Origin: Natronoarchaeum mannanilyticum
GTDB taxonomy: Archaea; Halobacteriota; Halobacteria; Halobacteriales; Natronoarchaeaceae
Length of the DNA: 64,000 nt
Assembly (NCBI RefSeq): GCF_039522665.1
Contig: NZ_BAAADV010000001.1
Location: 1-64,000, forward strand
Direction of reading: 5' to 3'
In this document: positions 21,792 through 24,568 of the stretch, piece after piece
Layout of the letters: each line of letters opens with the position of its first letter
Numbering within the stretch: position 1 is the first letter of the stretch
Translations under genes and position numbers: made by a program
Notes under the pieces: generated by a model
What the model saw: only the letters and a program-made list of their open reading frames with translations
Database searches by the model: none
Told to the model about the DNA's origin: nothing

Positions 21792-21905
21792 TCCGATATC
21801 TGCTGCCCCGATCTCGACTGACCCCGTCCGTACTGACGGCCACGTGTACTGTCGCGACACCAGGACTGGCGGGGAACACTGCGCGCGGAGCGACGTTGCC
21901 ACACA

Positions 21906-21922
21906 CCACCCTGTCGAGTGTT
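21906..21922 (-). repeat. ORB-like element 1
   Basis: On the minus strand this reads AACACTCGACAGGGTGG, a core followed by a short G-string. It is the leftmost copy and the least complete G-string of the set. Confidence 0.7.
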
Positions 21923-21989
21923 CTACGAACGAGAATGCCGGCGCTTGCGGCCGATTTTATCGCCGGTCGGGGAAGAATCGATCACCGGT

Positions 21990-22036
21990 CCCACCCCACA
22001 TTGTCGAGTGTTAGTCGAGTACTGGCGGGGAGGGGG
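21990..22036 (-). repeat. ORB-like element 2 (double, inverted)
   Basis: The minus-strand core AACACTCGACAA is followed by the G-string TGTGGGGTGGG. On its other side a second TCGAG half with a plus-strand G-string (GGCGGGGAGGGGG) ends at about 22036, so C- and G-strings flank a TCGAGTGTTAGTCGAG centre. Element 3 repeats this layout. Confidence 0.75.
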
Positions 22037-22051
22037 AGATATTATTTCGGT

Positions 22052-22103
22052 CACCCACCCCACCGCGTCGAGTGTTAGTCGAGAACCGGCGGGTGGGGGT
22101 GAG
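22052..22103 (-). repeat. ORB-like element 3 (double, inverted)
   Basis: The minus-strand core AACACTCGACGCGG is followed by TGGGGTGGGTG. The centre TCGAGTGTTAGTCGAG is again followed on the plus strand by GGCGGGTGGGGGTG. It is the best-matched partner of element 2. Confidence 0.75.
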
Positions 22104-22378
22104 AGGAGAACGTAGTCGCGGTTCGAACGTTACTTAACGTAGGTATCCGCTAGAAGCAATCCGGACTTCGAGAGCCGGTAGCCCGACTCGGTCAGACCGT
22201 CGAAACTCGAGCAACGGGGCAACGAAACCGTACTCGAGTGTAGGACCCGAGTGGTGGAACAGAGATAGGGGCGCGGGGTCGGCGAACACGCGACGCGGTG
22301 GGGCGGCTGGAAGGCGATGGAACGGATTGAATGCGGTCACCGAGCTCGACGACAGGAGCGGTGATCAAACGACGCGAC

Positions 22379-22440
22379 GAACACTCGACGGGGAGGGGTG
22401 TTCTAGTACATAAGCGTTTATATCACGTGACGCACTCGAC
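22379..22440 (+). repeat. ORB-like element 4 and half-site at the orc promoter
   Basis: GAACACTCGACGGGGAGGGG at 22379-22398 is a plus-oriented ORB with an immediate G-string. A half-site GCACTCGAC (22432-22440) without a G-string abuts the orc TATA box, so Orc binding here could also repress its own gene. Confidence 0.75.
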
Positions 22441-22442
22441 AC

Positions 22443-22454
22443 GCCGGTTTTATG
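22443..22454 (+). promoter_or_regulatory. orc1/cdc6 TATA box
   Basis: GGTTTTATGTAG at 22444-22455 lies about 30 bases before ATG 22480, which fits a leaderless or nearly leaderless transcript. The ORB half-site at 22432-22440 touches its BRE position. Confidence 0.6.
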
Positions 22455-22479
22455 TAGGACCTGTCCTAGTGTTTCGGCA

Positions 22480-23712
22480 ATGCCGCTGTTCGATCGGGAC
22501 ACGACCATCTTCCGCGACGAGGACGTCCTGCGGGAGGACTACCAGCCCGATTCGATCCAGGAGCGCGACGAGGAGATCGACGCTTACAAAACCGCCTTGC
22601 AGCCGGTTGTCAACGGCGCCCAGCCGCGGAACGTCTTCCTCTACGGCAAAACTGGCGTCGGCAAAACGGTCGCCACGCGCTTCCTGCTCGATCACCTCCG
22701 CCGGGACGTCGAGGAGTACGACGACGTCGACCTGTCGATCGTCTGGCTGAACTGCAACAATCTCACGAGCTCCTACCAAGTCGCGGCGAACCTGGTCAAC
22801 GAGCTGCGGCCTGCCAACGAGCAGATCAGCACGACGGGCTACCCCCAGCAGAAGATCTTCGACATGCTCTACGACGAGTTAGAGCGGCTGGGCGGAACGG
22901 TGCTGATCGTGCTCGACGAGATCGACCACATCGGGGACGACGACGATCTGCTGTACGAGCTTCCCCGAGCGCGCGCGAACGGGTATCTTTCCGCCGGGAA
23001 ACCGGGGATCATCGGCATCAGCAACGATTTTAGTTTTCGCAGCGGCCTCTCGCCGAAAGTGAAGGACGCCCTCTGCGAGGAGGAGATCCACTTCTCGCCG
23101 TACGTCGCGAGCGAACTGGAGTCGATCCTCGACCAGCGCGCCGCGAAGGCGTTGCACGACGAGGTTCTCGCCGACGGCGTCCTGCCGCTGTGCGCCGCGC
23201 TGGCCGCCCAGGACACCGGCAGCGCACGCCAGGCGCTGGACTTGCTGTACAAGGCTGGTGACCTCGCGCGATCACAGGACGTAGCGGAAGTGACCGAAAA
23301 GCACGTCCGGGACGCACAGCGCGCGCTCGAACGCGGCCGGATCAAGCAGGGAATGGTGGAGTTGACCCAGCACGGTCACCTCTCGCTGGTCGCCGTATTG
23401 AGTCTCGCCCTCGAAGAGGAGACGCCGGCGCGCGTCCGCGAGATCTACCCACGATACCGCTCGGCTGCCGAGTACGTCGGAACGAACCCGCTGGTGCGGC
23501 GCCGGATGCACGATCACCTCTCCGACCTGGCGATGCAAGGCATCCTCCACCGGAACACACGCAACGAGGGGCGAGCCGGTGGAAAGTACTACGTCTACGA
23601 TCTCGACGTCGCCGTCGAGATGGTGATGGACGTCGTCGACGATCTCGAGATGGTCGACCTGCCGCCGACGGTCGTTCGTCAGGCGGAACAGACCGATCTG
23701 ACCGCGCACTGA
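22480..23712 (+). CDS. orc: Orc1/Cdc6-type replication initiator
   Basis: A 410-residue AAA+ initiator that binds ORB elements and loads the MCM helicase. Walker A is [13 protein letters not shown] (about residues 54-66), Walker B is [12 protein letters not shown] (about 141-152), sensor 1 is [22 protein letters not shown], and sensor 2 is in [18 protein letters not shown]. The C-terminal winged helix (about 310-400) contains [19 protein letters not shown] and a GKYYVYDLD wing. The flanking repeats make this an origin-linked copy. Neighbours are not the sec11/polD genes I recall beside oriC1 of Haloferax, so which haloarchaeal origin class this is stays open. Confidence 0.95.
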
Positions 23713-23788
23713 ACGATCGACACCAGTTCGCTCTCGAATCTCGATGGTTTCTCAGTTGTCGTCGAAAACTAGCCTCGTCTCCTGAAGG

Positions 23789-23817
23789 GAACACTCGACG
23801 TAGTGGTGTGGGGGGTG
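23789..23817 (+). repeat. ORB-like element 5
   Basis: GAACACTCGACGTAGTGGTG followed by TGGGGGGTG: core, 6-base spacer and a strong G-string, 77 bases after the orc stop. Confidence 0.75.
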
Positions 23818-24057
23818 AAGTACACAGCTGGAAGAGACGGGAACTAAGACGGACAGAACAGCACCGAAACAGGCATCTATCACTGCAGCAACCGAGCCGT
23901 GTCGGCGTCATCGAACCACTGATCATGTTAGTTAGGGCGACGAGAGCGCACACGGGCTGTCTCGCCGACGATGACAGCGCGAACGGGCCGCCCCGTCGAC
24001 TGAATTTCACCTCCGGACTTCCTCGCTTCCGTCACCCCCTCCCCGCCATCTACCGAT

Positions 24058-24082
24058 AACACTCGACACCGTGGGGTGGGGG
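24058..24082 (+). repeat. ORB-like element 6
   Basis: AACACTCGACACCGTGGGG then TGGGGG: core plus the longest clean G-string. A C-rich run (CACCCCCTCCCC) lies just upstream at 24033-24044. Confidence 0.78.
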
Positions 24083-24137
24083 ACCCGTCAGAGCCCTCTC
24101 GACGTAGCGGTTTCTAGGACTACACCAGGAACCCGTA

Positions 24138-24167
24138 AAACACTCGACAAGGTGGGGTGAGTGTGGG
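24138..24167 (+). repeat. ORB-like element 7
   Basis: AAACACTCGACAAGGTGGGG then TGAGTGTGGG, the same orientation as elements 5 and 6 and the rightmost copy. Confidence 0.75.
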
Positions 24168-24320
24168 AGAAAAGCCCCGACATCGCATGGCGTCGTTTTC
24201 GCCGATCTGTCCGGTATCGCCGATATTTGGACGCCGAGAGGGAGAGAGTATCTCGGCCGCTAGTCCCGGAAGGCTTGTAAGAAGTGGCCTTTCTGATCCG
24301 CCCCGTCGCGACTCACCACC

Positions 24321-24355
24321 TTTACAAGGAGAGCTCTAATTACATCTAATTAGAG
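24321..24355 (+). promoter_or_regulatory. TATA box and 22-bp palindrome at the start of a small membrane protein gene
   Basis: TTTACAAGG (24321-24329) is TATA-like. It is followed by a perfect inverted repeat, CTCTAATTA (24334-24342) and TAATTAGAG (24347-24355), with a 4-base centre. The right arm ends on the base before ATG 24356, where a bound repressor would block initiation. Confidence 0.6.
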
Positions 24356-24568
24356 ATGGCCTCCAGGCACGACGTGGTTCTGGCGGTACTGCCGTTCCTG
24401 GTCCTGAGTGGAATCGTCGTCCAGTCGTTCGCGGGAGTACTCGAACGGGTTGCAGGGATCGGCGGTGGCTTCGAACAGCTACCGCTGGCGATCCCCGGAA
24501 TCCTGGCTGCGGCGGCGCTGGTCGGTCACGAGATCGCGATCTCCCCGCCCACCGCCGAAGATTGCTGA
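24356..24568 (+). CDS. small two-helix membrane protein of unknown function
   Basis: A 70-residue hydrophobic protein: helix about 8-27 (VVLAVLPFLVLSGIVVQSF), a Gly-rich turn and helix about 41-60 (LPLAIPGILAAAALVGHEIA). I recognise no family. The upstream perfect palindrome and TATA box, together with correct codon usage, support a real, regulated gene. It lies at the right edge of the replication origin. Confidence 0.6.
   Translation: MASRHDVVLAVLPFLVLSGIVVQSFAGVLERVAGIGGGFEQLPLAIPGILAAAALVGHEIAISPPTAEDC

Follow-up and report, generated by a model that had tools for sequence, protein, structure and literature searches.

Haloarchaea have many replication origins and often a dozen Orc proteins per cell. 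Origins with ORBs on both sides of the initiator gene have already been described (PMC3528665, PMC4010727), and as an origin the locus analysed here is ordinary for its kind. In Haloarcula hispanica, replication is supported by the part upstream of the initiator gene cdc6E; oriC2D, downstream of it, does not replicate by itself and lowers origin activity (PMC3936714); according to a review, such downstream ORB structures are frequent (PMC4010727). A G-rich inverted repeat enhances oriC1 of the same species (PMC3936714), and oriP of pHH400 is an ARS-verified, active origin (PMC3528665, PMC3936714). Haloarchaeal origins of like anatomy can also be dormant (PMC4595724, PMC3528665).

Analysis of a 64,000-nucleotide stretch of the Natronoarchaeum mannanilyticum genome (contig NZ_BAAADV010000001.1, positions 1 to 64,000; the window) revealed an orc1/cdc6 gene flanked on both sides by G-string ORBs (Table 1). 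The encoded protein is longer than 300 residues, has the AAA+ and winged-helix architecture and is intact by profile searches, with 437 bits for TIGR02928 and with Cdc6_lid and Cdc6_C above their cut-offs; its sequence relatives include two archaeal Orc proteins of known crystal structure, 2qby and 2v1u. Seven exact AACACTCGAC cores, each followed by a G-string, lie at 21913, 22003 and 22067 on the minus strand and at 22380, 23790, 24058 and 24139 on the plus strand, exactly where the sequence-only reading had placed them. That reading had overlooked an eighth box, U4, the core of which (AACACGCGACGCGGTGGGGCGG) carries one mismatch to AACACTCGAC, so that the adjoining spacers hold five ORBs upstream and three downstream. 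In the GC-rich window the bare 10-mer AACACTCGAC is unremarkable at up to one mismatch (9 found, 5.7 expected). The decamer with its G-string (AACACTCGACNNNGKGG, up to one mismatch) has only 12 matches in the 3.57 Mb genome, 8 of which fall within 21906–24155, the sole cluster of such G-string ORBs in the genome; a reversed control pattern matched once genome-wide.

Table 1. Coordinates of the origin features in the window.
Feature	Position	Strand	Remark
Replicator-initiator cassette	21792..24330	+	Borders approximate; DUF2103 stop to small-ORF promoter
ORB U1, points left	21900..21922	-	PWM, exact core
ORB U2, points left	21990..22012	-	PWM, exact core
Inward G-rich block GGGGAGGGGG beside U2	22027..22036	+	
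ORB U3, points left	22054..22076	-	PWM, exact core
Inward G-rich block GGGTGGGGG beside U3	22091..22099	+	
Proposed unwinding tract (lowest-stability 50 bp in upstream spacer)	22125..22174		Stability difference modest
ORB U4, points right, one core mismatch	22285..22307	+	PWM; layout conserved in G001
ORB U5, points right, 100 bp before start codon	22380..22402	+	PWM, exact core
ORB-TATA element, tandem core GACGCA/CTCGAC into TTTTAT; proposed orc operator	22429..22453	+	
orc1/cdc6 initiator gene	22480..23712	+	410 aa
ORB D1, points away from orc	23790..23812	+	PWM, exact core
Inward block CCCCCTCCCC beside D2	24035..24044	-	Exact reverse complement of 22027-22036
ORB D2	24058..24080	+	PWM, exact core
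ORB D3	24139..24161	+	PWM, exact core

In the orientation of the gene, the upstream spacer alone shows the canonical layout: three left-pointing ORBs (U1–U3), an AT-richer tract and two right-pointing ORBs (U4 and U5). The boxes had been described as pointing left on the left of the gene and right on the right, which is correct downstream but fails upstream for U4 and U5. The unwinding element, earlier placed between the two ORB sets, is accordingly most likely to be sought within the upstream spacer itself (22077–22284), where inverted ORBs flank the AT-richer tract. We propose its least stable 50 bp as the unwinding tract (–66.5 kcal/mol per 50 bp, a modest difference from the spacer mean of –75.3); inside it, GAACGTTACTTAAC (22125–22138) is shared with the same-genus relative G001. 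A second spot of weak stability lies near –100 from the orc start. An AT-rich tract with TTTATAT (22418–22447), situated between U5 and the ORB-TATA element and AT-rich in relatives too, is a possible second TATA box or unwinding spot.

Two of the left-hand copies had been read as double elements with opposed G-strings. Both exist as written, but a reading as pairs of complete opposed ORBs was rejected: G001, the nearest relative, keeps the inward G-rich block and not the second GTCGAG. We prefer to see in each an ORB accompanied by an enhancer-like G-rich block that faces inward, because the second GTCGAG is missing from G001 and because the letters of GGGGAGGGGG are identical to those of the oriC1 enhancer repeat of H. 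hispanica (PMC3936714). Inward G-rich blocks stand behind 9 of 27 ORBs in four near relatives, where about 1.3 would be predicted from a background of 4.9%, orthologous boxes not being independent of one another. By analogy with oriC1, such a block may enhance origin activity at this locus.

The sequence-only reading had also called for a phylogeny of the initiator. Maximum-likelihood phylogeny placed the window Orc inside a clade of 18 members (support 98/97) in which one ORB type prevails throughout: the cores at all its loci are CTCGAC, TTCGAC, CTTGAC or CGCGAC. The cdc6K/oriP clade with GCGGAC cores falls outside it. The window Orc also lies outside L013, the gene that we took as the oriC1 type because almost every genome has a near-identical-scoring homolog of it, frequently where the chromosome record begins; the oriC1-type Orc of this genome is likely a different one, encoded on the same contig at a distance of about 1.16 Mb. 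Orthologs that are 64–71% identical to it are present in Haloarcula, Halomicroarcula, Natronomonas, Halorubrum, Halovenus and others; a further one is encoded on pR1SE2, a plasmid of Halorubrum lacusprofundi, which places the CTCGAC-type clade on chromosomes and on a plasmid. No match to the window Orc was found in phage records.

Several observations concern other orc genes. The nearest paralog in the same genome, L001 (G000:C3:125887-127092), is 58% identical to the window Orc; its same-genus ortholog (L083) has CTTGAA/CTCGAA-type ORBs and a weaker ORB-TATA-like element. Contig C6 of this genome (75.6 kb) carries six orc1/cdc6 genes (L003, L005, L007, L008, L009 and L012) and probably represents either a single plasmid or a mosaic of more than one. 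At the Halovenus locus L068, a second, fragmentary orc (704–782, 798–1456) lies about 5 kb upstream of the intact gene together with two ORBs of the same type as there, and is likely a decayed duplicate.

Comparison of the locus with its relatives revealed that the ORBs were kept while the spacers diverged. The ORB layout of G001 is exactly that of the window, and G003 and G005 differ from it by one upstream box, having four rather than five. The Haloarcula-group loci have two or three left-pointing boxes followed by one right-pointing box upstream and two or three right-pointing boxes downstream. The right-pointing box at –100 from the start codon is found in the window, G001, G003, G005 and one Halomicroarcula locus, and the more distant orthologs have only left-pointing boxes and the promoter element upstream. 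Layout and neighbours are conserved in the three relatives: in this genome and in G001, G003 and G005, a DUF2103 gene borders the unit on one side and a small ORF, with rpl37ae behind it, on the other. Five genomes of another genus of the family have a gap of about 80–100 bp between DUF2103 and the small ORF with rpl37ae, and this gap contains neither orc nor ORBs; it is because these genomes lack the cassette at the same junction that its borders can be set at about 21792–24330. The clean-bordered unit of about 2.5 kb thus occurs in two genera of the family, and a third lacks it at this junction; either one lineage acquired it or the other lost it. The membrane-like small ORF (24356–24568, 70 aa) has at its start the near-perfect AT palindrome CTCTAATTACATCTAATTAGAG (24334–24355), which has no second copy in the genome and resembles an operator or a start-site element belonging to the ORF. 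It is conserved in relatives with and without the origin, and as it stays with the small ORF in the latter, it was rejected as an unwinding element.

That this 2.5 kb cassette is very probably a haloarchaeal replication origin with its own initiator gene, as the sequence-only reading held, is supported by the intact Orc1/Cdc6, the G-string ORBs and their inverted arrangement around an AT-richer tract, and further by the layout in orthologs, the clade-specific ORB type and the empty site in sister genomes. Cumulative GC skew had been suggested as a check; it was uninformative and does not count as evidence here. The skew of the window peaks near 22–26 kb, although such short-range skew can follow local gene direction; in G003, a complete relative sampled at 80 places of 20 kb each, the signals of cumulative GC skew, third-position skew and strand bias of the genes are weak and lack a clear extremum at either origin, with only gene direction changing locally near 1.9 Mb.

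Such an origin might be dormant or relict, competent but silent in normal growth or firing only upon loss of the main origin, as examples from Haloferax mediterranei and H. hispanica show, where dormant origins linked to orc genes and bearing inverted ORBs are known (PMC4595724, PMC3528665). The mobility of this Orc family, present or absent among sister genera, would fit that history. We nevertheless regard dormancy as unlikely, since the orc gene is intact and 90–97% identical between genera and species, the ORBs are retained despite the diverged spacers, and the chromosomal position is fixed, a feature that goes with activity in Haloferax and Haloarcula (PMC4595724, PMC4441112).

The half-site noticed earlier beside the orc TATA box proved to be GACGCACTCGACACGCCGGTTTTAT, a tandem ORB core abutting TTTTAT, which itself begins 32 bp before the start codon; no other place in the genome matches it within three mismatches. 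The element occurs at nearly the same distance in all 17 CTCGAC-clade loci of the first set in which the true start codon was in reach, with the consensus GACGCACTCGACACGGTGGTTTTAT; in the window's own genus it reads GCCGG and not GGTGG as in relatives, which may reduce or otherwise alter its affinity. In other Orc families the promoter element changes with the ORB type. GCGGAC-type ORBs are paired with CGGACACTCCGGACACGGTGGTTTTAT and similar elements (pNG700, pHH400, the latter at its oriP, and pHME505), loci L075–L077 of this type having a CGGAC core in the element; TCGGAA-type ORBs are paired with CCGGAAACGGTGGTTTTAT, CTTGCA-type ORBs with an element beginning CACTTGCATC, and TTGGAA-type ORBs with TTGGAAACGGTGGTTTTAT. 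For several other Orc families, the element had no match in the form searched for.

To quantify this pairing, one representative was taken per Orc cluster (65% identity linkage), with ORBs drawn only from outside the promoter. Across 10 clusters, the promoter core shared 52 matching letters with the ORB core of its own family, compared with 37.4 ± 3.2 for shuffled pairings (P = 5e-6), five of the ten representatives having come from a promoter pattern search that loosely constrained the promoter cores and left the ORBs free. In 6 clusters, the promoter core likewise matched its own family's ORB core above shuffled pairings (P = 0.005). Conversely, among 293 genomes, 46 of 48 loci matching TCGACACGGTGGTTTTAT or GGACACGGTGGTTTTAT with up to one mismatch (some matched both) had an orc homolog. 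The two loci without a detectable orc are L141 (GTAAGGAACACGGTGGTTTTAT), which may precede a more distant Orc, and L123, which looks like a chance match. In the open-access papers searched we found no description of an ORB in a haloarchaeal orc promoter or of such covariation, which is not proof of novelty.

The core promoter of the window orc therefore holds a box specific to its own initiator, and the earlier hint of autoregulation is strengthened by the conservation and covariation of the element over Orc families. Because the promoter element carries each family's own ORB core, the pattern suggests that related initiators limit their own production through it. The element could instead be a promoter-proximal ORB used in initiation, or a general promoter motif: it is oriented as U4 and U5 are, and at L067, L068 and L073, which have no separate right-pointing upstream ORB, it could serve as the right-hand box. 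Both readings seem doubtful to us. The element adjoins the TATA box, its distance from the start codon is almost constant, and it has no long G-string of the sort needed at oriC1 (PMC3936714); a general promoter motif should not covary with the ORB core, and this one occurs only once in the genome. A role in initiation would, however, be compatible with autoregulation.

The downstream spacer holds three ORBs (D1–D3), all pointing outward from orc and conserved in orthologs, a cluster of the oriC2/oriC2D type that is best read, by analogy with H. hispanica, as a titration or regulatory array. That they belong instead to one large origin unwinding over or around orc, with no titration array, is improbable. 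The upstream ORBs pointing left and the downstream ORBs pointing right, together with G-rich blocks that face inward on either side, do make up one inverted array spanning the gene, and conservation extends to both sets, but inverted ORBs around an AT-richer tract are already present within the upstream spacer, and oriC2D of H. hispanica alone does not replicate and lowers activity while the upstream part replicates (PMC3936714).

Taken together, we consider it probable that the locus is a non-oriC1 origin cassette with its own ORB type, in which unwinding takes place upstream, the downstream ORBs hold surplus Orc and Orc represses its own promoter. The Orc would recognise AACACTCGAC-N3-GTGGGGTGGG; bound to the three left- and two right-pointing upstream ORBs, it would frame the AT-richer tract, where the duplex is predicted to open and MCM to be loaded for two forks, as at other archaeal origins. 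The three outward downstream ORBs may hold surplus Orc, as is thought for oriC2D, and by binding the ORB core that is joined to the TATA box of its own gene, Orc would limit transcription of that gene through negative feedback. In a broader and less secure reading, towards which we lean, an ORB-TATA fusion (a tandem core with a repeat of about 9 bp, the last copy of which enters the TATA box where a G-string would stand) allows many haloarchaeal initiators to regulate themselves and co-evolves with the ORBs of the family, so that mobile cassettes keep private, independent feedback loops. If this is true, cassettes moving between plasmid and chromosome would carry origin, initiator and feedback loop together, which bears on how the level of each initiator is set and how interference between cassettes is avoided. 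The covarying element makes a concrete prediction for model species with active origins, such as cdc6K in Haloarcula hispanica.

Among known systems, haloarchaeal oriC1 shares with this locus the inverted G-string ORBs around an AT-rich tract and the inward GGGGAGGGGG/CCCCCTCCCC blocks, whereas the window Orc is a non-oriC1 paralog in another gene context. Autoregulation by DnaA is classical, and E. coli dnaA with datA titration works in a similar way, in that the promoter of the initiator gene contains initiator boxes and a region rich in such boxes lies close by. Its DNA motif is unrelated, the present locus has an archaeal TATA promoter and an Orc1/Cdc6 initiator, and the two systems are not homologous. 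Wu et al. mention DnaA autoregulation as an analogy (PMC3936714). Orc1-2 of Sulfolobus islandicus is likewise an Orc1-family protein at its own promoter; it differs in being a non-initiator damage regulator that binds a DDRE hexamer (ANTTTC), not an ORB, in its own promoter (PMC9738581). The oriP-cdc6K system of pHH400 and pNG700 (Haloarcula) is similar in its two-sided ORBs and in having an ORB-TATA element at the same place. Membership of that family is set at an Orc identity of at least 80% with the same ORB (PMC3528665), and the window locus falls outside it, with an Orc identity of 58–59%, a CTCGAC core in place of GCGGAC and a separate clade, oriP-cdc6K being plasmid-borne. The oriC2-cdc6E and oriC2D system of H. 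hispanica (PMC3936714) has G-string ORBs on both sides of the initiator gene, with the origin upstream and an ORB cluster downstream, a likeness of layout; oriC2D has eleven downstream ORBs and the window locus three, and titration here would follow by analogy with it.
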